Assembly: GCA_023212695.1 (NCBI GenBank)
Contig: JALCCG010000028.1
Location: forward strand, 1-64,000
DNA length: 64,000 bases
Source of the DNA: Sporisorium sorghi
Taxonomy: Eukaryota; Basidiomycota; Ustilaginomycetes; Ustilaginales; Ustilaginaceae
Reading direction: 5' to 3'
Part shown: positions 36,444 to 52,354 of the stretch, one piece after another
How the letters are laid out: each line of letters starts with the position of its first letter
Numbering within the stretch: the first letter of the stretch is position 1
Program-made: the position numbers and the translations under genes
The notes under the pieces: generated by a model
Databases searched by the model: none
What the model saw: only the letters and a program-made list of their open reading frames with translations
Told to the model about the DNA's origin: nothing

Positions 36444-36480
36444 TTGACAACATACACGAAAATGTACTACATTATGTAGG
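36444..36480 (+). promoter_or_regulatory. Promoter with BlaI-type box A
   Basis: -35 TTGACA (36444-36449), 18-nt spacer, -10 TACATT (36468-36473). The box ACTACATTATGTAGG (36466-36480) covers the -10. It drives the c-di-AMP riboswitch and NlpC/P60 gene. Confidence 0.7.
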
Positions 36481-36501
36481 GTTACAAAAAATTAATTTTT
36501 A

Positions 36502-36622
36502 ATGCCGAGTTTCATTTTTGAAAACGGGGGAACCATTCCGGGTGAATTATTCTTGATTGAAAAGGAATAAAGGGCGCCTTCTACCGAACCCTTAGCTAAC
36601 TCCGTAGGCATCCGAAGGGAGA
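36502..36622 (+). promoter_or_regulatory. Cyclic di-AMP riboswitch (ydaO/yuaA type)
   Basis: The conserved blocks occur in order: CGGGGGAACCATTCCGGGTG, later GGGCGCCTTCTACCGAACCC, then AGCTAACTCCGTAGGCAT and the closing GAAGGGAGAG. These are the hallmark segments of the c-di-AMP riboswitch, which usually turns off cell-wall hydrolase and K+ transport genes when c-di-AMP is high. The following gene, an NlpC/P60 hydrolase, is a classic target. The ribosome site of that gene overlaps the 3' edge. Confidence 0.88.
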
Positions 36623-36630
36623 GCATGTGT

Positions 36631-37110
36631 TTGAAGAAATTCATGATTTCATTAATAGGGTCTGCAGTTATTTTGTCAGCTGGTGCGACTAATGCGTTTG
36701 CTGATGATCAATCCAAATTGCGTACAGAAGTAAGTCAAGTTGTTGGTACACCTTACAAGTGGGGGGGAACTTCTGTATCGAGTGGATTTGATTGTTCTGG
36801 TTTTATTTTGTATATCTTTGATAAGTTTAATTTGGAGCTGCCACGGACATCAAATGCTCAGGCAAAAACAGGTACCCCAGTTGCAAAGAAAAATCTCAAA
36901 CCTGGAGATTTGGTCTTCTTTAATACAAGTGGTGCTGGTATATCTCATGCAGGGATTTATATCGGTAATGGGCAATTTGCTCATTCTTCCAGTAGTAAAG
37001 GAGTAAGGATTAGTAATTTATCGGAATCATACTATAAGGATCGATACGTTACAGCAAGACGTACAATCTCTAAACAAAGTTATACAAAAATGGTTAGTGG
37101 ATTGCACTAG
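36631..37110 (+). CDS. Secreted NlpC/P60 peptidoglycan hydrolase 1
   Basis: About 159 aa: a Sec signal peptide (MKKFMISLIGSAVILSAGATNAFA) and a single NlpC/P60 domain with catalytic Cys in GFDCSGFILYIF, His in ISHAGIYIG and the third polar residue in the FAHSSSSKGV strand. It cleaves the stem peptide of peptidoglycan outside the cell. TTG 36631 is chosen (AGGGAG 9 nt upstream, family-like MKKF start); ATG 36625 is too close. It is controlled by both a BlaI-type box and a c-di-AMP riboswitch. Confidence 0.88.
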   Translation: MKKFMISLIGSAVILSAGATNAFADDQSKLRTEVSQVVGTPYKWGGTSVSSGFDCSGFILYIFDKFNLELPRTSNAQAKTGTPVAKKNLKPGDLVFFNTSGAGISHAGIYIGNGQFAHSSSSKGVRISNLSESYYKDRYVTARRTISKQSYTKMVSGLH

Positions 37111-37127
37111 TACTTATTTGTAATTAG

Positions 37128-37163
37128 ACAAGCCCTGGTAAAAACCACGGGTTTGTTTTTTTG
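37128..37163 (+). terminator. Terminator after NlpC/P60 gene 1
   Basis: ACAAGCCC and GGGTTTGT arms around a GGTAAAAACC-containing loop, followed by a run of T. Confidence 0.8.
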
Positions 37164-37246
37164 TATCGCAGGTGAATTAAATCTTGTTAAGAATTTAATC
37201 TAACATAATTCATTAATCTTCAATGGAAATACCATAAAATGAAAAA

Positions 37247-37358
37247 TTGACTAGTTAAATTAAATAAACTACAATTCGTAGTATATAATATATTATTGAT
37301 TTCTTGATGTTTTTAAACAAGGATCAATTTTTTTATCAAAAACACTACACTGCGTAGT
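37247..37358 (+). promoter_or_regulatory. asnB promoter with BlaI-type boxes B and C
   Basis: -35 TTGACT (37247-37252), 17-nt spacer, -10 TACAAT (37270-37275). Box B ACTACAATTCGTAGT (37268-37282) lies over the -10. Box C ACTACACTGCGTAGT (37344-37358) is 28 nt before the asnB start. Confidence 0.75.
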
Positions 37359-37386
37359 TAATAATCCGGAAGGGAAGACTTTTTCT

Positions 37387-39258
37387 ATGTGTGGGATTAC
37401 AGGGCTTTTGATGTTTGAAAACAATTCGCTGCCAACGACGGTAGCAATTAGAAAAATGACCGATGCAATCAAACATCGTGGTCCCGATCAAACGGGCATT
37501 AGGGTGGTAGATCGGATTGCTTTAGGATTTACCCGTTTGTCGATCCTTGATTTGGAACACGGCAGCCAGCCTATTTCCAACGAAGATCAGAGCCTTTGGC
37601 TAGTTTTTAACGGTGAGATTTATAATTATCAATCATTAAAAAGAGAACTTGAAGACCTTGGTCATACGTTTAAAACGAACACAGATTCTGAAGTCATCAT
37701 ACATTTATATGAGGAGTATCAGGAACATTGTTTAGAAAAACTGCGTGGAATGTTTGGATTTGCAATATGGGATCGGAGGAAAAAACAATTATTTGCTGCT
37801 CGTGATCATTTCGGAATAAAACCATTCTATTACTATACGGATAACACTCAATTTGCCTTTGGCTCCGAAATTAAAAGTATCCTTTCTTTAGATGGTCTGA
37901 AACCCGCCGTTAACTCAAAAAGTCTGTTCCATTATCTAACATTACAATATGTGCCCCAACCAGATACAATGTTTGCTGGAATAAAAAAGCTTGAACCGGG
38001 TCACTATTTGATTGTCGATCAATGGGGAAATATAAAGAATCAAACATATTGGGAAACTAAGTTCGAACCGGAACATCGGCCAATTGAAACATTTATTGAA
38101 GAGATCCGGTATAAACTTAATGAATCTGTGAATCTTCATACCCAGAGTGATGTGCCGATTGGGAGTTTTTTATCTGGGGGAATAGACTCAACATCGATTG
38201 CCAGTTATCTTAGCAAGAGAGGGCCTGTAAAAACCTTCTCGGTAGGATTTGAAGGCGAGCATAATGAAAATATATATGCTAAAAAGACGGCAACTGAACT
38301 GGGTATAGATCATTTTGATGAAGTGATATCGGTTGATCGTTTTTTTGAGGATACGATTAAGGCTGTGTGGCATATGGATGAGCCCATAGCAGATCCGTCT
38401 GCAATTGCGATCTATCGACTTTCCCAAGTGGCAAGAGAGCATATTACTGTCGCATTATCAGGTGAAGGTGCAGACGAGCTGTTTGGAGGATATCGTATTT
38501 ATAGAGAGCCCTCCTCACTTAAACCATTATCGTGGATTCCTACGAACCTAAAACGGAACATTAAGCAATTTATAGACGAAATTCCGTTCAATTTTTATGG
38601 CAAAAACTATTTGAAAAGAGGCTTAACTCCTTTAGAAGAACGATTTTTGGGGAATGCTAAGATCTTTAACGAACAAGAAAAGAGACTTGTCTTGTCTTCA
38701 ATGGTAAATTTGAAAACGAATTGGGAACCTACAACAGCACTAACCAGTAAAATATATGAGACTTCGAAAGACCTTGATGATATTAGCAGAATGCAATTAA
38801 TCGATCTTAACTTCTGGTTACCTGGCGATATTCTAATGAAGGCTGACAAAATGAGCATGGCACATTCCTTAGAGGTTCGTGTGCCATTTCTAGACAAAGA
38901 AGTGTTTGAAATAGCTCGTAAAATACCATCATCATACCGTGTAACAAATAAAACAACGAAATATGTACTTCGTAAAGCGATGGAGGACATAGTACCTAAT
39001 CATGTACTGAATCGTCCCAAGCTAGGTTTTCCAGTACCTTTAAAGAAATGGCTTATGGGATCTATCGGAGATATCATGATCGAACAAATCATTATAAGTG
39101 GTATTGAAGAATGGATTCAAATAGATCATGTTGTTGGTCTATTAAAGGAACACCGTAATGGGAAAGTCGACAACTCAAGAAAAATATGGACCATTTATAT
39201 TTTTGCCTTGTGGCACTCGGTTTTTATACATGAAAATTCAGTTAGACTCGTGATATAA
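37387..39258 (+). CDS. asnB: Glutamine-hydrolysing asparagine synthetase (AsnB type)
   Basis: A 623-aa class II amidotransferase. After Met, Cys2 (MCGITGLLMF) is the glutaminase nucleophile. The synthetase half has the PP-motif SGGIDSTSIASYL near residue 265. In Bacillus subtilis one AsnB paralogue amidates meso-diaminopimelate in peptidoglycan precursors rather than making free asparagine. Given BlaI-type boxes B and C and the cell-wall neighbours, envelope amidation is a reasonable guess. GGAAGGGAAGA precedes the ATG. Monocistronic. Confidence 0.9.
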   Translation: MCGITGLLMFENNSLPTTVAIRKMTDAIKHRGPDQTGIRVVDRIALGFTRLSILDLEHGSQPISNEDQSLWLVFNGEIYNYQSLKRELEDLGHTFKTNTDSEVIIHLYEEYQEHCLEKLRGMFGFAIWDRRKKQLFAARDHFGIKPFYYYTDNTQFAFGSEIKSILSLDGLKPAVNSKSLFHYLTLQYVPQPDTMFAGIKKLEPGHYLIVDQWGNIKNQTYWETKFEPEHRPIETFIEEIRYKLNESVNLHTQSDVPIGSFLSGGIDSTSIASYLSKRGPVKTFSVGFEGEHNENIYAKKTATELGIDHFDEVISVDRFFEDTIKAVWHMDEPIADPSAIAIYRLSQVAREHITVALSGEGADELFGGYRIYREPSSLKPLSWIPTNLKRNIKQFIDEIPFNFYGKNYLKRGLTPLEERFLGNAKIFNEQEKRLVLSSMVNLKTNWEPTTALTSKIYETSKDLDDISRMQLIDLNFWLPGDILMKADKMSMAHSLEVRVPFLDKEVFEIARKIPSSYRVTNKTTKYVLRKAMEDIVPNHVLNRPKLGFPVPLKKWLMGSIGDIMIEQIIISGIEEWIQIDHVVGLLKEHRNGKVDNSRKIWTIYIFALWHSVFIHENSVRLVI

Positions 39259-39271
39259 ATTAGTTGTTAAT

Positions 39272-39297
39272 TGAGGGGTAGACCTCTCATTTTTTAC
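39272..39297 (+). terminator. Weak terminator after asnB
   Basis: TGAGGG and CCTCTCA form an imperfect short stem followed by six T. Confidence 0.5.
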
Positions 39298-39348
39298 TTT
39301 CTAAGTTGATGGGTTAAACCTTGGCTTAAATGGTCTGAGAGAATGAGG

Positions 39349-39380
39349 CTCACAAAATCTACACATTTACCAACTATAAT
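39349..39380 (+). promoter_or_regulatory. Promoter with CTCACAAAATCTACA element
   Basis: CTCACAAAATCTACA (39349-39363) is identical to the element at 35639 before csp. TATAAT follows at 39375-39380. The half-repeats CTCACAAAATC and TACACATTTAC are 11 bp apart, as in OmpR-family sites. Confidence 0.5.
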
Positions 39381-39415
39381 AGGAGTTATTCTATACTCAA
39401 GTTAGGAGAATGATG

Positions 39416-40336
39416 ATGACGGATAAGAAATCAAAGAAAAAAAGGAAGGGAATATCGTTAGGTATCGGATCATTATTTTCTGTGGTTATGATTGTCTTGA
39501 TTGGTTTTGCTATTTGGGGAAATGTGAAAAAATCGAATGATACCACTCTTGATACACTGAATGCCGACTCTAACACTCATCCACATATATTTAGCTACTC
39601 GCCTAGTAATGATACGGTCTGGGTAGGGACACATACAGGTGTTTATGAGCTGAAAGACGATATATTTCAAAGAACACTCCCAGAACTCCGTACGAATGAT
39701 ATCATGGGGCTTGAAATTGATCCGTTTGATCCAACAAGGATATTTGTATCAGGACATGGATTTGTCAAACGTTCCGTTGATGGTGGGGAAACTTGGCAGA
39801 CAATTGAAAACGGACTCCCTAATGCAGCAAAACCCGATGAGCCCGATGCCCATTATTTAACGATGGACCCGGATGATCCGAATCATCTATTTACATTGTT
39901 AGCAGGTGAGGGTGATAACCTGTATGAAACGAGGGATGGCGGGAACACGTGGACGAATGTAACAAGTTTACCTGCCGGTGCATATTCTATTACAATGATG
40001 ACTGGATCGCCATCATCCATTTTGGCTGGAACGGAAACGGGACTTGTACGGTATGATATACAAAATGGAACTGTTCAAGAAAACAAACTGACCAATGATC
40101 CGGTTTATCAAGTCATAACTTTGCCTAACAAAGAAGTAGTTACTATGACGGAAAGCGGATTCCAAAAATCAATGGATTTGAAAACATGGACGGCGATGGA
40201 CATAGAATTGAATGGGGAAATTCCACTTGGTATTAAAGCATCTAAACAAGACAGCAACCGTCTCGTTATTATAACAGATCGTTATTCTGTTTATGAAAGT
40301 AGTAACGGCGGAGAGAAATGGACAAGAACGAAATAA
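39416..40336 (+). CDS. Membrane-anchored BNR-repeat beta-propeller protein (F510_1955-like)
   Basis: About 306 aa. A Lys-rich N-terminus and one membrane helix (LGIGSLFSVVMIVLIGFAIWG) precede an extracytoplasmic beta-propeller with BNR/Asp-box repeats (SVDGGETWQ, TRDGGNTWT, SSNGGEKWT). Annotation pipelines call such proteins F510_1955 family glycosylhydrolase, but no enzymatic activity is known to me. ATG 39416 has AGGAG 7 nt upstream. It lies between asnB and the BlaI-like gene but shares its 15-bp promoter element with the csp gene, not the BlaI box. Confidence 0.8.
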   Translation: MTDKKSKKKRKGISLGIGSLFSVVMIVLIGFAIWGNVKKSNDTTLDTLNADSNTHPHIFSYSPSNDTVWVGTHTGVYELKDDIFQRTLPELRTNDIMGLEIDPFDPTRIFVSGHGFVKRSVDGGETWQTIENGLPNAAKPDEPDAHYLTMDPDDPNHLFTLLAGEGDNLYETRDGGNTWTNVTSLPAGAYSITMMTGSPSSILAGTETGLVRYDIQNGTVQENKLTNDPVYQVITLPNKEVVTMTESGFQKSMDLKTWTAMDIELNGEIPLGIKASKQDSNRLVIITDRYSVYESSNGGEKWTRTK

Positions 40337-40354
40337 GTAATTCGCCTTCTACAA

Positions 40355-40390
40355 TTGACAGTGCTACTAATTGTTACTACAATTTGTAGT
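40355..40390 (+). promoter_or_regulatory. Promoter of the BlaI-M56 pair with box D
   Basis: -35 TTGACA (40355-40360), 17-nt spacer, -10 TACAAT (40378-40383). Box D ACTACAATTTGTAGT (40376-40390) is a perfect palindrome about its centre and covers the -10, indicating autorepression. Confidence 0.8.
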
Positions 40391-40406
40391 TACAGAGGTG
40401 AGGAAA

Positions 40407-40838
40407 TTGAAAATTAAAAAGTTTAACATGCATGAACAAGGTCTAAATCAATTCTTTGGTCCGCTGGAAGCGAAAATTATGGAAATTCTATGGGCATCAA
40501 AAAAAACAACGATTCGTGATGTACAAACCATTGTAAGTGAAGAAGAACCACTCTCATTTAATACCGTAATGACTGTTATGAATCGATTGATTGAGAAAGG
40601 ACTGCTGAAAAAAACTTCCAAGGGTAGCGGTAGAGCAAGATTAACGTTTTTTGAACCTATACAAACCAAAGAACAATTCTTATCAGAACAAACTAAAGAG
40701 GTTACACAAGGACTAATCCGCGAATTTGGAGAGTTAGTTGTTGGTCATATGATCGATGCATTGGATGATGCAGATCCTAAATTAATCTCTAAACTTCAAG
40801 ATAAACTGAACCAAATGAATCACGGGAGTTCATCATGA
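40407..40838 (+). CDS. BlaI/MecI/CopY-family repressor
   Basis: A 143-aa regulator with the BlaI winged helix (FFGPLEAKIMEILWASKKTTIRDVQ; SFNTVMTVMNRLIEKGLLKK). It lacks the C-terminal CxCx4CxC copper motif of CopY, so inactivation by proteolysis by the adjacent M56 protein is more likely. TTG 40407 has GAGGTG 6 nt upstream and an additional AGG. Its stop overlaps the M56 gene start by 4 nt. It is the presumed owner of the ACTACA-N3-TGTAGT boxes found from 36466 to 52354. Confidence 0.92.
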   Translation: MKIKKFNMHEQGLNQFFGPLEAKIMEILWASKKTTIRDVQTIVSEEEPLSFNTVMTVMNRLIEKGLLKKTSKGSGRARLTFFEPIQTKEQFLSEQTKEVTQGLIREFGELVVGHMIDALDDADPKLISKLQDKLNQMNHGSSS

Positions 40839-41692
40839 AATCGGCTGTGAAAACAAATCTGATTTTGTTAATCATGTTACTCACGGGCTCATTTGTGTTG
40901 ATCCAAATGGGTTGGTATGTCGCGCATCAAGTACTAGGTGTGCCACTCAATTGGAATATAATACAATACTGCTTAACCGCTATACAGGAAGACACTTTGG
41001 GGCATGACATCATTAAAGTTTTATTTAATCTTGTCATTTTGTATACAGTGGTGCGATTAGTTGGCAGATCAGGTAGGCAATTATTCTTGACTTGGAAATG
41101 GATGCGGACGTTTAGAAATAATACGGATCATCAGCAAACGTTATACCTAAACAAGGTATACCAGGATTGGAATACAGAAATTATAGTTGTTAGAGATGAC
41201 GCATTTATTGCTTTGGCAATGGGGATTTGGCATCCACGTATCGTTATTTCTACTGCAGTTATGAACCTGTTCAACGAAGAGGAAGTCAGGGCAATATTAC
41301 TCCATGAATGGTATCACTGCAGGGGACGCGATCCGCTTCAAATGTTCCTGGTCGTTTTACTGACAGAGAGCATGGGGTATATTCCATTATTAAAAACATT
41401 GAGCAATCAGTTTGCAACTAGGAAGGAACTTCTTGCGGATCGTTTTGCTTTAAGACATATGAAATCGGAATATCACTTAGGTAATGTATTATTGAAGTTG
41501 TCCACTTTGGTAAATAATCGGCATATAACCGTAGCTGTGCCCTTTGCAAATACAGCAATAAATTACCGAATATTACAAGTGCTTCAGCCGGATCAACCGC
41601 TTCATATTCCCTTTTCCTACGGCAAGTCTCTTCTGTCAACCATTATTATTTTTGGCATCATGATTGGTTTGATATCGGGCGGATGTTCATGA
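40835..41692 (+). CDS. M56-family membrane metalloprotease (BlaR1/MecR1 core without sensor)
   Basis: A 285-aa membrane protein. The zinc motif is HEWYH at 157-161, with the third ligand likely in RKELLADRFA (Glu198/Asp202). Hydrophobic helices are at 7-29, 60-78 and near the C-terminus. Unlike BlaR1/MecR1 it has no extracellular penicillin-binding sensor; it ends GLISGGCS. It should cleave, or cause cleavage of, the BlaI-like repressor on sensing an unknown envelope signal. ATGA overlap with the repressor gene signals coupling. Confidence 0.9.
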   Translation: MKSAVKTNLILLIMLLTGSFVLIQMGWYVAHQVLGVPLNWNIIQYCLTAIQEDTLGHDIIKVLFNLVILYTVVRLVGRSGRQLFLTWKWMRTFRNNTDHQQTLYLNKVYQDWNTEIIVVRDDAFIALAMGIWHPRIVISTAVMNLFNEEEVRAILLHEWYHCRGRDPLQMFLVVLLTESMGYIPLLKTLSNQFATRKELLADRFALRHMKSEYHLGNVLLKLSTLVNNRHITVAVPFANTAINYRILQVLQPDQPLHIPFSYGKSLLSTIIIFGIMIGLISGGCS

Positions 41693-41712
41693 GCCCTTTT
41701 TTTATTCTAAAC

Positions 41713-41727
41713 ACTACTACGTGTAGT
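41713..41727 (+). promoter_or_regulatory. BlaI-type box E
   Basis: ACTACTACGTGTAGT is a 15-bp variant palindrome, 37 nt before the CcdA-like gene at 41765. No good -35 is seen, so it may act as an internal roadblock. Confidence 0.6.
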
Positions 41728-41764
41728 TTTTACGGTAAGATTATTGCTGAGGTGATTTAAGGAC

Positions 41765-42502
41765 GTGTATGAAATATTCAACTGGATAACCAACGTTGTT
41801 GCTAGTCCATTAACTGAGGTAGCGTACTCTTCGAATATAGCACTTCTTTCTGTTATGTTTTTGGGGTTTGTCGGTTCAGTGGCACCGTGTCAAATTTCAG
41901 CAAACATAGGTGCCATGATGTATTTTAGTAACCGCCAAGTTCAGCGAAGATTATCATGGATCGAAATCAGTATGTACTTGCTCGGGAAAATTTCAGTATT
42001 TAGTATATTGGGTGCTGTGTTTTGGCTATTTGGACAAAGTGTATCCCAAGATATGATTCCATTTTTCGTATTCGCACGTAAAATGTTAGGTCCACTGCTG
42101 ATTATCATGGGGCTGTTCTTTTTAGGTTTGTTGAAATTACCGGGTAGTTTCGGCTTTCAATTATCTTCATATCTAAAAAATCTATCTGGACGTATCGGTG
42201 GGAAATGGGGGGCGTTTGTACTAGGAGCTTCCTTTTCCTTCGGTTTTTGTCCAACGATGGTTTGGCTGTTTTTCGGCTTAGTTATGCCGTTGGTATTTCA
42301 ATCTTCTTATGGATTCATTCTACCTCCAATATTTGCAATAGGAACAGCGATGCCGTTTCTATTGTTTGTGGGATTAAGCATCGTACTGGGGTTCGATACA
42401 GCTATGATAAAAAAGTCGCGTCAATGGGGGAAATGGATGCAGAGAGTCGTAGGTGTGTTATTTCTATTATTAGGGGTCGCCGATACGATAACTTATTGGT
42501 AA
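41765..42502 (+). CDS. CcdA/DsbD-like thiol membrane transporter 1
   Basis: A 245-aa protein with about six membrane helices and two conserved proline-linked cysteines, in SVAPCQISANIG and GFCPTMVWLFFG. These fit the CcdA/DsbD-beta family that carries reducing power from cytoplasmic thioredoxin across the membrane. Extra N-terminal length and sequence resemble the TauE/SafE-like UreH-2 group. GTG 41765 has AAGG 2 nt and GAGGTG about 10 nt upstream. Lgt follows after 50 nt. A second CcdA lies at 47698. Confidence 0.8.
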   Translation: MYEIFNWITNVVASPLTEVAYSSNIALLSVMFLGFVGSVAPCQISANIGAMMYFSNRQVQRRLSWIEISMYLLGKISVFSILGAVFWLFGQSVSQDMIPFFVFARKMLGPLLIIMGLFFLGLLKLPGSFGFQLSSYLKNLSGRIGGKWGAFVLGASFSFGFCPTMVWLFFGLVMPLVFQSSYGFILPPIFAIGTAMPFLLFVGLSIVLGFDTAMIKKSRQWGKWMQRVVGVLFLLLGVADTITYW

Positions 42503-42552
42503 TAAGGTGACTACATGCTGTTATATATTTGAGATGAGAGGGAAATGATGAG

Positions 42553-43347
42553 ATGAAGGTTATACTCTTTTCCATTGGCGGTATTGATATTCGTTCTTAT
42601 GGCGTAATTGTAGCTTTTGCAATTTTACTTGCCATAGGAGTTGCTTATTACCTTTCGAGAGGGAGCGAGTACCAGAAGCATATTCCGAACTTAATGACCT
42701 ATGTGATTTTTGGCGCAATTATAATGGCCAGAGTTTGGCACGTTTTCTTTTTTCAGTGGAACTATTACTCATCCAATCTAAGTGAAATATTTGCCATTTG
42801 GAATGGGGGAATATCAATTCAAGGAGCATTAGTGGGTGGTTTTATAGTGGCAGCTATCTATACTAGGATACATCGCCTTTCATTTTGGGAATTGGCGGAT
42901 GTCCTGGCACCTGCAATTATTTTAGGACAAGCTATTGGCAGAGTTGCTTGCTTTCTTAATGGTGATGCTTTTGGTTCTCCGACAGGTTCAAACTTTGGGA
43001 TTGTATACCCTCCAGGAACAATGGCATTTGATGTTTATGGTTCGCAGCCGCTTTGGCCAGCCGAGGTATGGGAAGGGCAGTGGGATCTGATTGTATTTGC
43101 CATTTTACTCATATTGAGAACGAGAACTTTGCCTAGAGGGGTATTGTTCCTTTGGTATAACATTCTTTACGCAGTTGGAAGATTTATGTTGGAATTTCTG
43201 CGTGGGGATTCCCTTCGCTACTTGCTGGACTGGACCGCGGGTCAATGGACTAGCGTTGTCGTTATCCTCGTAAGTATTGGTTTGATTCTGTATTTCTCAT
43301 TTCAGAATAAACAGAAACAGCAGGAGATATTACTGCAAGATAAATAG
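42553..43347 (+). CDS. lgt: Accessory prolipoprotein diacylglyceryl transferase
   Basis: A 264-aa seven-helix membrane enzyme. The Lgt blocks are YGVIVAFAILLAIGVAYYLS, WNGGISIQGALVGGF and the signature GRVACFLNGDAFGSPT, where the usual GNF is ACF. It attaches diacylglycerol to the lipobox Cys of prelipoproteins. Chromosomal lgt is normally next to hprK; here it is in the BlaI-type regulon beside thiol genes, so it is an extra copy. Copper is known to interfere with lipobox cysteines, which gives a reason. ATG 42553 has GAGAGGG upstream. Confidence 0.9.
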   Translation: MKVILFSIGGIDIRSYGVIVAFAILLAIGVAYYLSRGSEYQKHIPNLMTYVIFGAIIMARVWHVFFFQWNYYSSNLSEIFAIWNGGISIQGALVGGFIVAAIYTRIHRLSFWELADVLAPAIILGQAIGRVACFLNGDAFGSPTGSNFGIVYPPGTMAFDVYGSQPLWPAEVWEGQWDLIVFAILLILRTRTLPRGVLFLWYNILYAVGRFMLEFLRGDSLRYLLDWTAGQWTSVVVILVSIGLILYFSFQNKQKQQEILLQDK

Positions 43348-43410
43348 GCGTGCCTTACACCATTACTTTTGGTGTTATCTCGGAGAAGGCTCTTGGAATT
43401 GGTATAGCTA

Positions 43411-43443
43411 ATGGACCCAGTTATTCACTGGGTCCATTTTTAA
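43411..43443. terminator. Terminator between lgt and NlpC/P60 gene 2
   Basis: Perfect 10-bp stem ATGGACCCAG / CTGGGTCCAT with loop TTATTCA and a TTTTTAATTT tail. Confidence 0.9.
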
Positions 43444-43447
43444 TTTA

Positions 43448-43462
43448 ACTACAATTTGTAGT
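43448..43462. promoter_or_regulatory. BlaI-type box F in a convergent gap
   Basis: ACTACAATTTGTAGT, identical to boxes D and I, but it lies between two gene 3' ends and has no -35 in either direction. Confidence 0.6.
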
Positions 43463-43464
43463 GT

Positions 43465-44771: not shown

Positions 44772-44816
44772 GATCTAATATATATTTAAAAAACATATGT
44801 TACAAATTAAAAAACC

Positions 44817-44861: not shown

Positions 44862-44872
44862 TGTTCTATCTT

Positions 44873-44974: not shown

Positions 44975-45216
44975 TTGGAATGGTTTGCATATCGATAGAG
45001 GATACAGGGCCAGGTATACCTGAAGATGAAATTCCTTGTTGGTTTGAGCGATTCTATCGTGTTGAAAAGTCCAGATCAAGGGAACATGGCGGGTCTGGAC
45101 TCGGGCTCGCAATTGCCAAAAAAATAGTGGAGCTCCATAACGGCAAAATTCAAGTATTCAGTGAATATGGACAGGGCACAACATTTGAAGTTCATTTACA
45201 AAAATTCGAATCTTAA
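44975..45216 (+). pseudogene. 3' remnant of a sensor histidine kinase gene
   Basis: About 80 codons encode the C-terminal ATPase part: ISIEDTGPGIPEDEIP, FERFYRVEKSRSR, GGSGLGLAIAKKIVEL and the terminal TTFEVHLQKFES. This matches the end of the intact kinase at 62031 (YRVEKSRSRQTGGTGLGL) without being identical. The gene is cut at its 5' side against the oxidase remnant on the opposite strand. Confidence 0.85.
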
Positions 45217-45240
45217 AAATAAAAAATGTAATTATTCATT

Positions 45241-45279
45241 AAGTGCCTATCGCTGACTGCGACAATGGCACTTTTTATT
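45241..45279 (+). terminator. Terminator after kinase remnant
   Basis: AAGTGCC ... CGC TGACT GCG ... GGCACTT then TTTATTTTT. Confidence 0.8.
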
Positions 45280-45380
45280 TTTAATATGTTAAATGATAAA
45301 TGGACTAAGGCAGGTTTGAAATAAGAATGATGAGAGCAGACTGAATTACATATAAGAGATAAATTGGGAAGGGGATTTTC

Positions 45381-47582
45381 ATGGTGATAAGGGATATTCA
45401 GAGGGATGCGATTCTAACATTCGCAGCTGCTTTCTCTTTCATCGTTTACGAAGTTTTTCTTTCTCGATTCTTTGCAGTTATCTCGGATAATAATTACGTG
45501 TTTTTAACCATTTCATTAGCTACGCTAGGTATTGGACTTGGTGGATTTATGGCCTATAAAACTGCCGGACGTGTTTACCAATTTCGCAATGTATGTCTCG
45601 GCTTGTTTGCACTTTTTCTAATCGTATCCGTCTTTGTCATGTATGTCTTTCCGTATCAAGGGATATGGTTTTATTCACCAGTCGCTCTGCTCCCTTTCTT
45701 TACTGGAGGTGCTTTACTCGCTGCCATTATGCAACAACATAAACAACAAATTCGCCTCATTTATTGTGCTGATTTGGCTGGCGCAGGGATTGGAGCCGTT
45801 TCATCCATCGTATTGATGAGTATATTCGATCCCATCACAACAATATCACTGTTAGCTGCCATATTGTTTGGAATAAGCGTTAGTATGGACTTTAATCGTT
45901 CGCGAACCCAGCGGAAATTCGTATATCTCTTGATTTTTACGCTTCTGCTTGTCAACACGGTCTTACCATTCTCACAATACATCCCCTTTCTGGCATTCGA
46001 AACGAGTCCATCAAATGTGTTCCAAGGAAACACGAAATCAAAAGTTATGTATACGGAATGGAATTCATTCTCTCGTACTGATGTATACGACGATGCAAAC
46101 GGGGAGCTGTTATATATTACTATCGATGGGGGTGCTGTTTCTCCCATATCAAAATATACGGGGGACTTAGAGGAGGTAGACTATTTACGATCAACAACCA
46201 GTTTTCTTGCTTTTGAAGATATCTTAGATAAAAAACGGGCACTCATTATTGGAGCAGGCGGTGGCCAAGAGGTTTTAGCCGCCCAACTTGCAGGCTTTAA
46301 GGAAATTGAAGCGGTCGATATCAATCCTGGGAGCTTTCGAGCTGTACAGACAGTTTCTTCATTCTCGGGCGATGTATTTAATCAACCGGGGGTGAAAGCA
46401 ATCGTTTCTGATGGAAGGAATTATATACGTCAAACACAAAATCAGTATGACTTGATCTATTTGTCCCTTGTAAAAAAAGAATCGGAGAATGGCTTAGGCC
46501 TTGCTTTGACTGAAAATTATATCTTCACAGAAGAAGCCATCCGAGAATATCTAAACAAGCTGAAGCCGGGGGGGAGGCTTGCATTTTTACTCCATGATGA
46601 GTCGGAGCTCATGAAGGTGTTGAACGCAGCAGAGGAATCACTACGATTTGAAGGGATTCATCATAATCAATTACAGAATCATCTGGCAGTGATTGGCACA
46701 TATCAGCATCTTGGTCATGTCGTGTGGGGATTCAATGGGAGTCGTATTACCAGGCCGTTGGTGATTGTGACGAAAGCCCCCTTTACTTTAGAGTCCGCAC
46801 AACATCTTAAAGTGGAAGCTGAAAAGAAACAACAGATACCTGTTCACATCCCAAAGATATATGATCGCTATGCTGATTTATATCGTACTTTTTCGATTTC
46901 ACAAAACCAATTACTTTCTAATCGTGACGATATGCCCTACTTTTACAATAAGGCAAATGGGGTTCCTGTCCAACTTGTCATTCTTACGATAGGTACGATA
47001 TTGATTACTTTAATATTAGCTGTAAGAACAAAGTACTCATTAGGTCGTACCGCGTACTTTTCTGGGTTGGGGATCGGATTTATTGTGATTGAAACAACAC
47101 TTATACAGAGGTTAATCCTACCGTTAGGACATCCAACGTTATCTTTTGTATTGGTGCTTGGTGTATTGTTAGTTTCTGGTGGTGTTGGCAGCCTGTTTTT
47201 TGGTAAATGGTTTTCTTTCGACAAGAATAGATACACGCCTTTGTTGTGGATTTGTGTTTTAACATTGTGTGTGAATGGAGTTATATCATGGTATAACGAA
47301 CAATCATTTTCTTTATCTTTAACCTATCGGGTTATAGCAGCGGGGCTAATACTCATCCCATTAGGTTTATTTATGGGTATGCCGTTTCCGTTTGGTTTGA
47401 CGAAGACTCCTGAGCGGAAGATAGCATTAAGTTGGGCAATTAATGGTCTGATGACCGTCACTGGTTCGCTTCTTGCCACCATGATCTCTTTAACCCTAGG
47501 CTTTACTGCTGCTATGACGATAGGAGCTCTGTTATACGGGTTGTTATATATTTTGCAACCGAAATTAAATTTAAGTAAGTAA
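45381..47582 (+). CDS. Membrane-fused spermidine-synthase-like protein
   Basis: A 733-aa protein. About seven N-terminal membrane helices (residues 1-200) are followed by a spermidine-synthase-type Rossmann domain (ALIIGAGGGQEVLAAQLAGF; IEAVDINPGSF; VSDGRNYIR; PGGRLAFLLHD) and a second set of about seven helices from residue 530. Such fused proteins are widespread; their substrate is not established and polyamine synthesis is only one option. GGGAAGGGG lies 5-7 nt before the ATG. No BlaI-type box precedes it. It is monocistronic. Confidence 0.8.
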   Translation: MVIRDIQRDAILTFAAAFSFIVYEVFLSRFFAVISDNNYVFLTISLATLGIGLGGFMAYKTAGRVYQFRNVCLGLFALFLIVSVFVMYVFPYQGIWFYSPVALLPFFTGGALLAAIMQQHKQQIRLIYCADLAGAGIGAVSSIVLMSIFDPITTISLLAAILFGISVSMDFNRSRTQRKFVYLLIFTLLLVNTVLPFSQYIPFLAFETSPSNVFQGNTKSKVMYTEWNSFSRTDVYDDANGELLYITIDGGAVSPISKYTGDLEEVDYLRSTTSFLAFEDILDKKRALIIGAGGGQEVLAAQLAGFKEIEAVDINPGSFRAVQTVSSFSGDVFNQPGVKAIVSDGRNYIRQTQNQYDLIYLSLVKKESENGLGLALTENYIFTEEAIREYLNKLKPGGRLAFLLHDESELMKVLNAAEESLRFEGIHHNQLQNHLAVIGTYQHLGHVVWGFNGSRITRPLVIVTKAPFTLESAQHLKVEAEKKQQIPVHIPKIYDRYADLYRTFSISQNQLLSNRDDMPYFYNKANGVPVQLVILTIGTILITLILAVRTKYSLGRTAYFSGLGIGFIVIETTLIQRLILPLGHPTLSFVLVLGVLLVSGGVGSLFFGKWFSFDKNRYTPLLWICVLTLCVNGVISWYNEQSFSLSLTYRVIAAGLILIPLGLFMGMPFPFGLTKTPERKIALSWAINGLMTVTGSLLATMISLTLGFTAAMTIGALLYGLLYILQPKLNLSK

Positions 47583-47616
47583 TATAAAAAATTCCGCTAT
47601 TAATTTTTCATTGGAA

Positions 47617-47680
47617 TTGACATCGTCTATTCTTTGATACTACAATACGTAGTGTAAGTCTAATCACTACTTACTGTAGT
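47617..47680 (+). promoter_or_regulatory. ccdA operon promoter with BlaI-type boxes G and H
   Basis: -35 TTGACA (47617-47622), 18-nt spacer, -10 TACAAT (47641-47646). Box G ACTACAATACGTAGT (47639-47653) covers the -10. Box H ACTACTTACTGTAGT (47666-47680) ends just before the ribosome site. Confidence 0.78.
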
Positions 47681-47697
47681 TTAAGGAGAAAAGTAGC

Positions 47698-48411
47698 ATG
47701 TTCAACGCTGATTTAACGGTCTGGATTGTTTTTGCAGCAGGATTTCTGTCATTTATCTCACCATGCTGCCTTCCGCTGTACCCCTCGTATTTATCTTATA
47801 TAACAGGGGTATCCGTGAAAGATTTACAGGAAGGCAGAGGGGCTTTTCGAACAAGAACATTGTTTCATACTGTTTTTTTTATTTTTGGGTTTTCTATTAT
47901 ATTTTTCGCTCTAGGTCTGTCTGCTAGTTTCATAGGAAATCTGTTTACTGGTAATCAAGAGTTAATTCGCAAAATAGGCGGTGTGATGATTGTTGTGATG
48001 GGTTTGATGATGGTGGGGTTATTTAAACCTTCAATCCTAATGAAAGATTTGCGATTTGAATGGAATAAAAGGCCTGTCGGTTATCTGGGTTCCGTATTAG
48101 TCGGAGTTACATATGCGGCAGGGTGGACACCCTGTGTTGGCCCTATACTCACAGCGGTGTTAGCTTTAGGTTTTACCAATCCCTCTGAGGCGTTGATATA
48201 TACCTTTTCTTACACTTTAGGCTTCGCTATTCCGTTTTTTATCATGGCCTTCTTCCTTGGGCGAACGAAATGGATCCTAAAACATTCTAATCGACTCATG
48301 AAAATCGGAGGAGCATTAATGGTGTTGACAGGTGTCTTGCTCTATACGGATCAAATGACAAAAATCACTATTTTTTTCATTGAATTATACGGTGGATTTA
48401 CTGGTTTTTAA
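47698..48411 (+). CDS. ccdA: CcdA-type thiol transporter 2
   Basis: A 237-aa protein with six membrane helices and the two active cysteines in FISPCCLPLYPSYLSYITG and AAGWTPCVGPILTAVL, the standard CcdA signature. It moves electrons from cytoplasmic thioredoxin to outer thiol-disulfide proteins. AAGGAG lies about 9 nt upstream. The next gene is a membrane-anchored TlpA/ResA-like thioredoxin, its likely partner. Confidence 0.93.
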   Translation: MFNADLTVWIVFAAGFLSFISPCCLPLYPSYLSYITGVSVKDLQEGRGAFRTRTLFHTVFFIFGFSIIFFALGLSASFIGNLFTGNQELIRKIGGVMIVVMGLMMVGLFKPSILMKDLRFEWNKRPVGYLGSVLVGVTYAAGWTPCVGPILTAVLALGFTNPSEALIYTFSYTLGFAIPFFIMAFFLGRTKWILKHSNRLMKIGGALMVLTGVLLYTDQMTKITIFFIELYGGFTGF

Positions 48412-48426
48412 GGGGGCGAGTTTGTA

Positions 48427-48939
48427 GTGAAAAAACAATGGTGGATACTTTCGACAATTATTGTTCTCGCTATCATCGCTATTATACAATCGACGTCTGT
48501 AAGAACAGAAGAACTGCCCAAAACGGGTTATCAAGCCCCGAACTTTTCACTACAAGCACTTGATGGACAGACTTATTCACTCCAAAGTTTGAACGGCAAA
48601 CCTGTCGTAATTAATTTTTGGGCTTCGTGGTGCGGCCCATGCAAAATTGAGGCACCTGAATTGGTACGGCTCTACGATAAATATAAAGCTCGTATAGAAA
48701 TCTATGCGGTGAATGTAACAGCTAGTGATTCAATTGAAGGGGCTAAAGCTTTTGCACAAGATTTTGGTTTTCAGTTTCCCGTTCTGATTGATGAAAAAGG
48801 TGAAGTAGCTCAAAAATATGCGATTCGCCCCATACCAACTACGTTATTTGTCAATAGTGAAGGCATTATTATCGAACAGGTCATTGGTTTGGTTGATCCA
48901 CAAACCATGGAATCCAAGTTTCGGCGGTTGTTACCTTAG
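48427..48939 (+). CDS. ResA/TlpA-like thiol-disulfide oxidoreductase
   Basis: A 170-aa protein with an N-terminal membrane anchor (WWILSTIIVLAIIAIIQS) and an extracytoplasmic thioredoxin fold. The redox site is WASWCGPCKIEAPEL and the cis-Pro loop is RPIPTTLFV. It likely reduces disulfides or copper-oxidised thiols outside the membrane, fed by CcdA. GTG 48427 has AGGGGGCGAG upstream. Part of the box-G operon. Confidence 0.92.
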   Translation: MKKQWWILSTIIVLAIIAIIQSTSVRTEELPKTGYQAPNFSLQALDGQTYSLQSLNGKPVVINFWASWCGPCKIEAPELVRLYDKYKARIEIYAVNVTASDSIEGAKAFAQDFGFQFPVLIDEKGEVAQKYAIRPIPTTLFVNSEGIIIEQVIGLVDPQTMESKFRRLLP

Positions 48940-48961
48940 GGCATAATAGGGGGATGATATT

Positions 48962-49807
48962 TTGCAGTTTGGCCCGTTTGTAATCAGGATAGATTGGTTG
49001 ACAATAGCGGTGTCTGGATTCGCTGGATTTATAGCCATGCAATGGTTGTGTAAACGATACGGTAATCGAGATCAGCCAATACTAGACCCCGTTGCCAATG
49101 CTTTGTTATGGATATTGATCATATGGAAATTTAGCCCGCTGGTTAGTACACCATCATTGTTGAGTAACCATCCGCTTCTTTGGTTGACGATGCCCGGAAC
49201 CATGATGGGATGGTGGGTCGGTTTGATAGTTGGTTCGATTTATTTATACCGTGCCTGGTATCGTCTTGAAGTTTCTTGGTGGTTAATTGGCGATTTGTTC
49301 ACCTTTGGAGGGGGGGTTATGTATGTAACATACAGCATGCTTGCTTGGCAATACGGAAGTCTGACAACCCTTCCATGGGGAATTTCAATTCATAATCCTG
49401 AATTCCATTATCACCCAATCAACGTATACCGGTTAATCATTCTTTTACCGATGCTAGTCTGGATCTGGAAAAACGCTGGGCTTATTGGAAGCGGTAAGTG
49501 GCTAACAACTGCGTTAAAATTTCCCGTGATGGGTCTAATGATTGTGTCATTATTTGATTCAAAACCCAAATGGCTTATCCCGTTATCCTTCGAACAAATG
49601 GTGTATCTCATATTAATGTTGTTAGGAATTGGATTATCATTACGTAATGCTAGAAGAGATCAGACAAATCTATCGAGTGAAACGATTATAGAGGAGGGAC
49701 AAAATGAAGTATCAGGGATATTACAATCTCATTCAAGAAATCTTGATATTGACCCGATCAGACCTAAAGATTCGAGGAAAGAAAAAGGGTCATTTTTATC
49801 AGATTAG
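48962..49807 (+). CDS. Divergent Lgt-like multi-helix membrane protein
   Basis: A 281-aa protein with about seven membrane helices. The order LTMPGTMMGWWVGLIVGSIY, a WELAD-like WWLIGDLFTFGGG, and HPINVYRLIILLPMLVWIW recalls Lgt (compare HPxQLYE), but the catalytic Arg/Asn signature GRxGNFxNGE is not seen. It may be a lipoprotein-modifying or electron-transfer partner of the preceding TlpA protein. TTG 48962 has AGGGGGATG upstream. Its last 104 nt overlap the next gene in another frame. Confidence 0.55.
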   Translation: MQFGPFVIRIDWLTIAVSGFAGFIAMQWLCKRYGNRDQPILDPVANALLWILIIWKFSPLVSTPSLLSNHPLLWLTMPGTMMGWWVGLIVGSIYLYRAWYRLEVSWWLIGDLFTFGGGVMYVTYSMLAWQYGSLTTLPWGISIHNPEFHYHPINVYRLIILLPMLVWIWKNAGLIGSGKWLTTALKFPVMGLMIVSLFDSKPKWLIPLSFEQMVYLILMLLGIGLSLRNARRDQTNLSSETIIEEGQNEVSGILQSHSRNLDIDPIRPKDSRKEKGSFLSD

Positions 49808-49952
49808 ACAAGATGCAATTGCATTCATTCATACAGATTGGTTTGATTCATTGTGTTATTCAGTGAATTTGGAGCCTGATGCGGTGCGTGTATCATTTCT
49901 TGATGATACCATTCAACACTCGAGAAAATATAGGGCAACTAACAATTTGTAG
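49704..49952 (+). CDS. 82-aa hypothetical protein overlapping the previous gene
   Basis: GAGGAGGG lies 5-6 nt before ATG 49704, a very strong site inside the upstream gene. The protein is soluble, begins MKYQGYYNLIQEILILTRSD and contains DWFDSLCYSVNLEPDAVRVSFLDD. No family is recognised. Ends before the D,D-carboxypeptidase gene. The 104-nt out-of-frame overlap is unusual and supports tight coupling, or a shifted end of the upstream gene. Confidence 0.6.
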   Translation: MKYQGYYNLIQEILILTRSDLKIRGKKKGHFYQIRQDAIAFIHTDWFDSLCYSVNLEPDAVRVSFLDDTIQHSRKYRATNNL

Positions 49953-50024
49953 AGAAAATAACCATCCATAATTTATACACATTTTTAGAATGCATTATTG
50001 CCTTCAGAAAAGGATACGGCATCT

Positions 50025-51212
50025 ATGAAAAAATTCTACAAGGCTTTTCTAATCCTATTCACTTTGCAGTTCAGTCTTCAGAATCTGACATTTGCAATGG
50101 AAGATAAGGATCACTTTTCACTCAATAGCGAGGCAGCTATATTGATTGACGGAACAACAGGTTCCATTTTGTTTCATAAAGAAAGTGATCGTTTGATGTA
50201 TCCAGCAAGTATCACAAAAATTGTAACAGGAATCATTGCGATTGAAGAAGGGAATTTAGACGACATTGTAACCGTCAGCAAAGCGGCTAGATCTATCGAT
50301 GGTACTAGGGTTTATTTACTTGAGGGTGAACGGGTTCCTCTGTTGAAGCTGGTACAAGGGCTTCTTATTAATTCAGGTAATGATGCGGCTACAGCGGTTG
50401 CGGAGTACTTTGATGAAAGTGAAGCCCAGTTTGCTGAACGAATGAATGAATTTGTGAGTGAAACGATTGGTGTTAAAAACACGACCTTTCAGAACCCGCA
50501 CGGGCTATTTGATCAAAAGCACCAAACAACCGCTTATGATATGGCAAGGATTACACAATATGCAATGAAAAATCCTTTGTTTCGATCCATAGTAAGTACA
50601 AAGGAAATGGAATGGGTTGGAGAAGGTTGGGAAACGACTCTCTATAATCATAACAAGCTTCTTTGGCGTTACGAGGGAACGACGGGTGTGAAAAATGGAT
50701 TCGTAGATCAATCCGGCTATACATTGGTTGCTTCTGCAAAGAGAGGAAGCTCAGAATGGATCGCTGTAACGTTAAAATCGGATTCATCAGAACTAGCTTA
50801 TAGTGATATGGTAAATTTATTTGATTATGGATTCGAACATTATGAAACCTACTCGATCTCGGTAGATGCAACATCCTTCCAAAGTTATAAAGATCGGTTT
50901 GTAATCCCCAAGACATTGGTGTTTACAGGCACAAAAGACATAGATTTTAAAGTTGAGATCGATCAATCTGACGGTCAGATCGTTGTTATTGATTCAGCTG
51001 GGCAAATTATATATAAGGAAAAATTGGTACCTATCGTTCAAAGCCTTCAAAAAACTACAACAACAACCGATCAAGTTATAAAAACAGAAAGTGAGTCCTA
51101 TCGTACATCAATACCTAAAATCATTATCTTGGCAGTAACCACGTTGTTCACGCTACTGCTTATTAGAAAACAATGGATAAAGAAAAAGCGACGATATTTG
51201 AGTAATGATTGA
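50025..51212 (+). CDS. D-alanyl-D-alanine carboxypeptidase (PBP5/DacF-like)
   Basis: A 395-aa protein: signal peptide (FLILFTLQFSLQNLTFA), peptidase S11 domain with SITK (Ser62, Lys65), SGN (117-119) and the third motif GVKNGF in place of KTG, then the PBP5 C-terminal beta domain and a terminal membrane anchor (IIILAVTTLFTLLLI) with a basic tail. It trims the terminal D-Ala from stem peptides outside the membrane. ATG 50025 has AAAGGA about 10 nt upstream. It follows the 82-aa gene by 72 nt. Confidence 0.9.
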   Translation: MKKFYKAFLILFTLQFSLQNLTFAMEDKDHFSLNSEAAILIDGTTGSILFHKESDRLMYPASITKIVTGIIAIEEGNLDDIVTVSKAARSIDGTRVYLLEGERVPLLKLVQGLLINSGNDAATAVAEYFDESEAQFAERMNEFVSETIGVKNTTFQNPHGLFDQKHQTTAYDMARITQYAMKNPLFRSIVSTKEMEWVGEGWETTLYNHNKLLWRYEGTTGVKNGFVDQSGYTLVASAKRGSSEWIAVTLKSDSSELAYSDMVNLFDYGFEHYETYSISVDATSFQSYKDRFVIPKTLVFTGTKDIDFKVEIDQSDGQIVVIDSAGQIIYKEKLVPIVQSLQKTTTTTDQVIKTESESYRTSIPKIIILAVTTLFTLLLIRKQWIKKKRRYLSND

Positions 51213-51247
51213 AAAATCGAATATTTTCGCTTAATTCGTTGATCAAA

Positions 51248-52180
51248 TCATGTATTAATTAAATCGTTATCTTCTAACCAGATCTCCTGAATAACTTCAG
51301 CTAGTACAGTTATGGTACGATAACTTTCTTCAAGATTATTTTCGACTCCTCCGATCTCTATAAGTGCACTATTGGTCGATAGGGCTTGGTTGTAATCACC
51401 ATCTCCACTGGCGGAGTCTTTTGTATATATTCCTTTTGAAAGATCAGGTACTTTATCATTTAGTCCCTTTTGAATGCGTTCATCGAATTTCATATTCTTT
51501 TCCCAATTCGGATTATTTGTTCCAACAACAAAATACACTTGAGCATAATTCAAGTTATTATGTTGAACGGTGGTTTTATCTCGTCCCTGTGAGTCACGAT
51601 GGATATCAATCAGATACTCAATATTATCATGCATGGTACGTTCCTGTTTTATTGTATTCTTTGAATAGGTGTAGGAATAGGCATAATTAAAACTGTCGAC
51701 AAATGAAGGATAATCTTTTTTGAATGAAAAACAGGGATGTCATACGATTTCATTTTTTTTATTAGATAATCACCTAATAAGGTAACATTTGTTTTAGAGT
51801 CAAAGGCTTCATTTGCTGTTTGGACATTGCTTAATTCGGGTAACCATGATTCACGATTGTGCGAATGATAGATGAGGATTTGAGGCATAGAACGTTTGGC
51901 TTTTACTTTTTTCTTTAAAGGATTCGTTTGTGCCTCGGTTGATGTTTTTTCTTTATTTTTTAATGGTGCCGGTTGTTTTGATTTGTGCTTTGAAGATTCT
52001 GTTGTTAAGGGGGAACCTAGAGAGGTTACTTTAACAAATTGTACCGGTTGGGGATCCGATTTCGTTATTATTTGAGGTGAAGCGAATTTCGTGTGATATA
52101 TGTGAACTCCTATCGTTGTATAGAAAGTTAACGAAAAAAACCAATCCAAATACTTTGATATATTTGCGTTTATTACTCAT
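51248..52180 (-). pseudogene. SpoIIP-like amidase gene with two frameshifts
   Basis: AGGAGGGATAATTC and ATG 52180 begin an N-terminal membrane anchor (MSNKRKYIKVFGLV) that loses frame at a T7 tract (plus 52134-52140). The next frame holds SMPQILIYHSHNRESWLP and SKTNVTLLGDYLIKKMKSYDI, and loses frame at an A6 tract (plus 51717-51722). The last frame holds MHDNIEYLIDIHRDSQGRD and TNSALIEIGGVENNLEES. These are SpoIIP (N-acetylmuramoyl-L-alanine amidase, Zn-dependent) segments in the right order. Both breaks are at homopolymers, the second at an A-AAA-AAG slippery heptamer. It is convergent with the carboxypeptidase gene. Confidence 0.85.
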
Positions 52181-52317
52181 GAATTATCCCTCCTGGATCT
52201 CTCTGAATCTAGCGTTCATTTACTAGTAGATTATGAGTGGAGTAGGAGAAGTAGAACCAATAGATAGAATTAGTGATAAGAATAACATCGATAATTAGGG
52301 TAAGAATTCCTATAAGA

Positions 52318-52354
52318 TTGAAAAAGGCACACTTAAAACACTACAATTTGTAGT
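52318..52354 (+). promoter_or_regulatory. murE-like gene promoter with BlaI-type box I
   Basis: -35 TTGAAA (52318-52323), 18-nt spacer, -10 TACAAT (52342-52347). Box I ACTACAATTTGTAGT (52340-52354) is identical to box D and covers the -10. Confidence 0.75.

Follow-up and report, generated by a model that had tools for sequence, protein, structure and literature searches.

The stretch of DNA analysed here (64,000 nucleotides, hereafter the window) covers positions 1 to 64,000 of contig JALCCG010000028.1 (C211, 127,199 bases) from a 23-Mb assembly of 469 contigs (GCA_023212695.1, G000), which is registered under the basidiomycete Sporisorium sorghi. It contains a gene for a BlaI/MecI/CopY-family repressor (blaI), a gene for an M56 membrane metalloprotease that overlaps with it by 4 bases, and ten palindromic boxes of the type ACTACA-N3-TGTAGT, each with a 3-bp spacer and at most one mismatch (Table 1). 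The DNA is bacterial and sits in a probably mixed assembly. The most similar M56 protein is from Paenibacillus lautus (97% identity). In pAZOPL1, a 226-kb plasmid of P. lautus (NZ_CP032413.1), the genes stand in the same order and a 28-kb match to the window shows 94.6% identity, so that C211 is itself probably a plasmid. The assembly as a whole, with its Paenibacillus-like contigs, is probably a eukaryote assembly with bacterial DNA; a Paenibacillus has been reported with the fungus Thamnidium (PMC7928374).

The palindromic boxes and their promoters

An earlier note on this DNA had listed nine of the palindromes, all with correct coordinates and letters, and had missed the tenth at position 35520. 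In 300 random first-order Markov sequences, boxes with the 3-bp spacer and up to one mismatch numbered 0.12 on average and two at most. With the same arms and tolerance, one site with spacer 0 was present in the window and none with spacers of 1, 2, 4, 5, 6 or 7 bp. At up to three mismatches the excess was small (37 sites, as compared to a random mean of 23.0), and only tight boxes were therefore counted. All ten boxes are retained in the P. lautus plasmid, with changes at 0 of 100 arm positions and 8 of 50 spacer positions (Fisher p = 0.0001), where the spacer is taken as the five central bases and the boxes had first been picked in the window. Box 43448-43462 is one that has kept its arms and changed its central bases.

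Five of the boxes (36466, 37268, 40376, 47639 and 52340) have the hexamer TTGACA, TTGACT or TTGAAA at 17-18 nt from a -10 hexamer, TACAAT or TACATT, which occupies box positions 3-8. The earlier note had counted five such sites, with these distances, but had equated the -10 element with the left half of the box alone. We surveyed the boxes of the window and its relatives that have a gene of at least 100 amino acids nearby (125, of which 114 remained after removal of near-duplicates), oriented towards that gene. TTGACA-like hexamers, matching at 5 or 6 of 6 positions, preceded the in-box TACAAT position by 17 nt in 23 boxes and by 18 nt in 21, as compared to 5 at ten other spacings combined, and the AAT that is favoured in the spacer is therefore partly a -10 box. 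A conserved A at position -2 and a conserved T at position +16 in this set suggest a full site of about 19 bp, and T-rich runs are located ahead of many of the boxes. Since the -10 element overlaps the box and follows TTGACA at 17-18 nt, promoter occlusion would be the simple reading of the arrangement.

Distribution of the box beside blaI-M56 pairs

The earlier note had proposed a scan of related genomes for the 15-mer near BlaI/M56 pairs, which recovered it from the Paenibacillaceae and near kin. Our near set consisted of 44 (L008-L051) of the 63 scan loci, all from Paenibacillus, Cohnella, Gorillibacterium or Paenibacillaceae, except L042 (Anoxybacillus) and L037 (labelled Bacillus sp.). 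In this set, 77 sites with a 3-bp spacer were identified in 36 of the 44 loci and none with a 2-bp spacer; spacers of 0, 1, 4 and 8 bp yielded 6, 1, 1 and 3 sites, with about 1.85 expected for each. Adding the results of two group searches (17 of 100 and 72 of 104 genomes with a match), further stretches and the plasmid locus L122 gave a larger set. From the second search, two matches (in G165 and G143) and ten that contain an internal stop were left out. M56 relatives without a sensor domain are common in the group (72 of the 104 genomes at E ≤ 1e-30). After removal of duplicates and of lengths outside 240-320 amino acids, 111 distinct M56 genes remained. Sites were counted up to 620 bp ahead of the gene and up to 250 bp behind it; by this measure, the 3-bp site was found beside 88 of the 111 genes and the 2-bp site beside none, with 8, 0, 1, 0 and 2 for spacers of 0, 1, 4, 5 and 6 bp. 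Typically, boxes are placed immediately ahead of blaI and right behind the M56 gene, ahead of the next gene.

In the remaining 19 scan loci (L052-L070, 350 kb in total), sites were sought anywhere in each locus. Ten of these loci had neither spacer, while eight had 2-bp sites and no 3-bp site. Five of the eight, all from Bacillales (L054, L056, L057, L066 and L067), have the 2-bp site at most 1.5 kb from the M56 match, and in the other three, from Lachnoclostridium, it is at least 6 kb away and may have arisen by chance. The last locus, L052, is from a Parcubacteria metagenome-assembled genome and contains two 3-bp sites, one ahead of blaI and the other ahead of a DsbA-like gene, and no 2-bp site. 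Its blaI-M56 pair lies together with a copper-type ATPase gene (Pfam) and with genes that look VKOR-like, CcdA-like and cupredoxin-like by eye, and the whole genome has three exact sites, the third of which precedes a cupredoxin gene.

In total, M56 relatives were identified in 30 of 380 sampled genomes of the Parcubacteria class, that of L052 included, with sizes of 0.7-1.3 Mb. The 3-bp site was present in 26 of the 30 loci (34 sites) and the 2-bp site in one, and three matches with a 6-bp spacer overlap 3-bp sites. Among the genes directly behind a box are those for HMA-DsbD_2 fusions (L211, L213), GILT-like proteins (L209, L215), DsbA (L052, L224), a cupredoxin (L227) and an alpha/beta hydrolase (L214); for 7 of the 20 neighbour or target proteins scanned there was no Pfam match.

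Because of these counts in the Paenibacillaceae and the Parcubacteria, the BlaI/M56 pair very probably has this box as its operator, as judged from sequence and in line with the earlier note. The 3-bp spacing, from which the note had suggested a distinct subfamily, is not confined to that subfamily: the same spacing occurs at the Parcubacteria pairs and at a distant BlaI paralog (25% identity) in the same assembly, and a 5-nt gap between half-sites has been published for BlaI_0696 (PMC8457756). The paralog of the same assembly, a second blaI on contig C331 (L007 4596-6492, C331:89595 onward), has two boxes of the same kind and is followed by an M56 gene in two overlapping frames.

Exact ACTACN5GTAGT sites numbered 2-14 per genome in nine whole genomes, as compared to 9-33 for a reversed control, and in the window's own assembly at up to two mismatches the motif was found 308 times and the reversed control 1033 times. 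A lone box thus proves nothing, and since the reversed control is the commoner, lone boxes elsewhere in the genomes were left out of the evidence. By hand tally, 39 of the 50 exact sites in the nine genomes are located at most 20 kb from an M56 gene found with this query, and three of the other 11 adjoin a different blaI (L100). In G005, eleven exact sites fall inside one 61-kb stretch.

Target genes, repressor and protease

The earlier note had placed boxes before the genes for NlpC/P60, AsnB, the pair itself, the two CcdA-like membrane proteins and the MurE-like ligase, which agrees with our results with the exception of box 43448, between the 3' ends of the convergent lgt and NlpC/P60 genes, which precedes neither. 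In the relatives, boxes precede copA (L008), CopC/CopD (L090), CopD (L029), DacA (L096) and asnB (L109) genes, several NlpC/P60 genes, a rhodanese gene divergent from a multicopper oxidase gene (L089), and genes for CcdA, DsbA, DoxX, YceI, DUF2231 and Lgt; genes for M23 and C39 peptidases also adjoin boxes. Because the boxes precede the same kinds of gene in the relatives, a single regulon that joins peptidoglycan, lipoprotein and thiol genes, as put forward in the earlier note, is supported. The note had set this regulon inside a copper island. Copper genes do surround it, but copper functions also fall within the regulon: copA here, the copper-related genes just listed in the relatives, and the cupredoxin of the Parcubacterium. 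The earlier interpretation is thus partly supported, and widened.

For 57 of the 74 M56 genes with a downstream site, the next gene on the same strand was identified: lgt in 21, the DoxX cluster in 8, CcdA/DsbD_2 in 8, the YceI cluster in 5, the DUF2231 cluster in 5, DsbA in 3 and others in 7, where the names DoxX, YceI and DUF2231 rest on one Pfam-checked member per cluster. The DoxX-like cluster (L166, L182, L184 and five more loci) is a further output of these modules.

The lgt gene of the window forms a clade of its own and is a second copy. A more distant lgt, 30-41% identical to it, is present in all ten assemblies compared (in the window's assembly at C32 and at C211:73660), and G003, G005 and G006 also have copies of 52-72% identity. 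Another lgt lies farther along the contig (L006 1639-2544); where this copy reads GRWGNYINQE in the alignment, the window's reads GRVACFLNGD. The protein encoded at 48962-49807 fell below the LGT profile and matched no Pfam family at E ≤ 0.001; its structure model (mean pLDDT 71.0, from 7 sequences) has E. coli Lgt (5azb) as its best match (E 4.4e-4, TM-score 0.50), so that the resemblance to Lgt is a probable one in predicted fold only. The spoIIP-like gene (51248-52149, minus strand) consists of two reading-frame pieces here and of one annotated gene in P. lautus. The start codon of blaI is uncertain, as the P. lautus annotation would place it at 40407.

Table 1. Predicted operator boxes and genes of the locus, with related boxes beyond the window
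Feature	Position	Strand	Remarks
Copper-translocating P-type ATPase (copA)	33363..35468	-	TIGR01511 622.6 bits, cutoff 397
Predicted box ACTACATCACGTAGT	35520..35534	.	copA side, 52 bp upstream of the gene; retained in P. lautus plasmid
Cys-rich DUF326 protein, weakly Csp1-like (below Csp1 cutoff)	35797..36132	+	P. lautus name: four-helix bundle copper-binding protein
Predicted box ACTACATTATGTAGG	36466..36480	.	before NlpC/P60; TTGACA 18 nt ahead of TACATT
NlpC/P60 peptidase	36625..37110	+	PF00877
Predicted box	37268..37282	.	before asnB; TTGACT 17 nt ahead of TACAAT
Predicted box, second before asnB	37344..37358	.	start codon 29 bp away
Glutamine-hydrolysing asparagine synthase AsnB	37387..39258	+	TIGR01536 above cutoff
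BNR/YCF48-like protein, hydrophobic N-terminal stretch	39410..40336	+	PF15902
Predicted box	40376..40390	.	before blaI; TTGACA 17 nt ahead of TACAAT
BlaI/MecI/CopY-family repressor	40398..40838	+	PF03965 77.5 bits, gathering cutoff 22.6
M56 membrane metalloprotease without sensor domain	40835..41692	+	PF05569; best PDB match BlaR1
Predicted box	41713..41727	.	between M56 and DsbD_2/CcdA-like genes
DsbD_2/CcdA-like membrane protein	41765..42502	+	PF13386
Second lgt (prolipoprotein diacylglyceryl transferase), own clade	42553..43347	+	PF01790 209.3 bits, cutoff 24.9
Predicted box	43448..43462	.	flanked by the 3' ends of lgt and NlpC/P60 genes (convergent)
Predicted box	47639..47653	.	before run ccdA, tlpA, Lgt-like, dacA; TTGACA 18 nt ahead of TACAAT
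Predicted box, second before ccdA	47666..47680	.	
CcdA-like membrane protein	47698..48411	+	PF02683
TlpA/ResA-like thioredoxin-fold protein	48427..48939	+	PF00578
Probable Lgt-fold protein without Lgt signature	48962..49807	+	structure model and alignment
D-Ala-D-Ala carboxypeptidase (DacA-like)	49998..51212	+	PF00768
Predicted box	52340..52354	.	between spoIIP-like (-) and murE-like (+) genes; TTGAAA 18 nt ahead of TACAAT
MurE-like ligase	52403..53854	+	NF001126 406 bits, cutoff 373
Box beyond window	C211:74770		before another NlpC/P60 gene
Box beyond window	C211:79798		107 bp upstream of oxidase subunit II gene (COX2_TM; L006 7798-8860)
Boxes on another contig	C331:89595 and C331:89621		before second blaI

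The BlaI protein of the window has no cysteine in its 146 residues and scored 38.7 bits against the CopY/TcrY equivalog, below the cutoff of 121.95. The M56 protein retains the HExxH and ExxxD motifs of the gluzincins, with helices around the protease domain, and its best match in the PDB is S. aureus BlaR1, both by profile and by model fold (mean pLDDT 80.8, with TM-scores to BlaR1, normalised to the model, of just 0.43-0.50). It is 285 amino acids long, as compared to 602 in BlaR1, and ends after the last helix; neither Pfam nor a profile search against the PDB revealed a C-terminal beta-lactam sensor or penicillin-binding domain, and a simple beta-lactam regulon was therefore rejected. To our knowledge, the signal of most M56 relatives without a sensor domain is not known. 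In the window's M56, Cys46 is located in the predicted first outer loop, which by position matches that of BlaR1, and Cys284 at the C-terminus, where the last helix would reach its outer end; the topology and the outward orientation of both are predicted.

Among the 111 M56 genes, both cysteines are present in 16 (12 with a site and 12 followed by a thiol gene within four genes), the loop cysteine only in 49 (46 and 8), the tail cysteine only in 16 (3 and 2), and other arrangements in 6 (3 and 0). The remaining 24 have a short outer loop; all have a site and none a thiol gene among the next four, and lgt is located within two genes in 21. These classes follow kinship, which the counts ignore, and the association between cysteines and thiol genes is thus not independent evidence. 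A strict pairing of the two cysteines, as suggested by the first 28 sequences, was rejected on the larger set. In the window's class, the last helix of M56 mostly ends on its outer side with GGC or something close to it, resembling a lipobox. That a lipobox sensor is the general rule was also rejected: the short-loop relatives end with GGDS, GGDT, GGSS or similar (one GGCS), yet lgt follows in most of them. In the Parcubacteria, hand counts gave at least one cysteine in residues 26-75 (the outer-loop region) in 28 of the 30 proteins, CxC spacing there in 15, and at least one cysteine in the last 60 residues in all 30, two of whose frames look truncated.

A predicted copper- or thiol-responsive switch

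From the site, its spacing, the overlap with promoters, the conservation, the kinds of target and the kinship of the protease, which were all computed, we infer as follows how BlaI is bound and cleaved, which signal acts, how the protease lies in the membrane and what its cysteines do. ACTACA-N3-TGTAGT would be the operator for the repressor encoded at 40398-40838, dimers of which, seated on or beside the -10 box, would block RNA polymerase at the blaI-M56 promoter itself and at other promoters, of which about six lie in the window and two farther along the contig. The predicted outputs are copper export and extracytoplasmic thiol reduction, together with a second Lgt, peptidoglycan tailoring and a terminal oxidase. 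The M56 protein would act as a BlaR1-like antirepressor with one predicted outward cysteine in the first outer loop and a second at the C-terminal end of the last helix; copper, or thiol oxidation caused by copper, would be the likely signal that activates the cytoplasmic protease, which would then cleave BlaI and derepress the regulon. We regard this explanation, taken as a whole, as probable. Copper or thiol state appears to be the likeliest signal because of the targets, the cysteines and the precedent of PetR/PetP in Synechocystis PCC 6803, a BlaI-family regulator and a BlaR1-family membrane protease that is proposed to be activated by copper and to degrade the regulator (PMC7896320, PMC13421787, PMC12292863).

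The likeness to PetR/PetP, compared by gene architecture and not by sequence, is that a BlaI-like repressor gene adjoins a BlaR1-like protease gene; PetR/PetP switches plastocyanin and cytochrome c6, and the accessible parts of these papers mention no regulon of envelope, lgt or Dsb genes. With S. aureus BlaI-BlaR1, in which the outer loop EL1 and membrane helices including the last take part in signalling, the pair shares a winged-helix repressor and an M56 protease with HExxH/ExxxD, but BlaR1 has a beta-lactam sensor domain where the window's M56 stops right behind the last helix (PMC9834060). CopY/CopR are from the same repressor superfamily and have TACA/TGTA half-sites and copper genes, but their operator spacer is 2 bp (RNYKACANNYGTMRNY) rather than 3 bp, and CopY has Cys-X-Cys motifs in a C-terminal metal site, whereas the window's BlaI has no cysteine (PMC7253601). 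The 2-bp spacing of the CopY-type operator TACANNTGTA, sought with the arms ACTACA/TGTAGT, was found neither in the window, at up to one mismatch, nor beside the 111 M56 genes. BlaI_0696 of Clostridium thermocellum has inverted half-sites five nucleotides apart, with the same odd-centred geometry, but its half-site is GTCTAT as compared to ACTAC here, and its regulon is small (PMC8457756). On mobile elements of Listeria and Enterococcus, a copper-induced lit2/lgt2 operon likewise has a second lgt co-regulated with copper resistance, and its regulator and operator are not described in the accessible parts of those reports (PMC8275575, PMC7387801). The plasmid lgt of these genera is 37-40% identical to that of the window, among the 30 matches listed of 492. 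No paper with the 15-mer, in three spellings, and none describing this regulon was recovered among the literature matches listed, in a search that mostly left out subscription papers.

Several observations weigh against the switch as described. Of the 111 M56 loci, 23 are without a site, and two of these (L020, L022) have the same thiol genes. Spacer 0 also exceeds expectation, in 6 of the 44 near loci, if far less than the 3-bp spacer. Five boxes (35520, 37344, 41713, 43448 and 47666) have no good -35 hexamer at the usual distance, and 43448 does not stand before any gene. In the nine genomes the reversed control outnumbers the exact motif, and in G210 the two are equal (3 versus 3). The loop and tail cysteines do not always occur together, and most members of the tail-only class are without a site. 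For many loci the flanking sequence extends only about 1.5 kb, and the target counts there are consequently low.

The main rival retains the operator and the switch and replaces the signal by cell-wall or lipoprotein-processing stress, the copper genes having joined because the plasmid island is a copper island. The targets murE, dacA, asnB and NlpC/P60 in the window, the M23 and C39 peptidases by boxes in the relatives and the short-loop proteins, with lgt close by and no thiol gene, would all fit this signal. The absence of a penicillin-binding domain from M56, the recurrence of copper and thiol genes by boxes in the relatives and the Parcubacteria, and the retention of outer-loop cysteines in two large classes argue against it, and we consider it unlikely. 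That the boxes are read by another regulator, such as the second BlaI on C331, with the local BlaI as a bystander, seems very unlikely: the two boxes of this gene and the four box-like sites of its L100 relative make cross-binding possible, but the boxes track the local blaI-M56 type in the Paenibacillaceae and near kin, usually ahead of blaI and behind M56. It is most improbable that the palindromes are mere repeats or weak terminators. Some do lie close behind genes (41713, 43448) and many follow T-rich runs, but the fixed spacing, the -35/-10 register, the arms that are kept while spacers change and the recurrence in another phylum all speak for a regulatory site.

For the predicted BlaI/M56 switch, the novelty lies in the class of operator, in how far it is spread and in a joint regulon for copper, thiol, lipoprotein and wall functions, while the principle of a repressor paired with a protease is already known. 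More tentatively, the pairs of the Paenibacillaceae and Parcubacteria could form a switch class across phyla, without sensor domains and with a 3-bp operator, in which outward loop and tail cysteines of the protease, by binding Cu(I) or through a disulfide, might report the external copper and thiol state; Lgt could modify the lipobox-like tail cysteine, which would provide feedback on the co-regulated second lgt. Cys46 and Cys284 offer a direct mutational handle on the mode of sensing. A common operator would make the regulons of M56 pairs without a sensor domain readable from sequence, and would link these pairs to copper and to disulfide chemistry as well as to lipoprotein lipidation and cell-wall tailoring. 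If true, the locus would be a natural example of a dedicated second Lgt under the control of a proteolytic repressor system, and a transcription circuit can be predicted for the 30 genomes of the Parcubacteria class with a relative of this protease.

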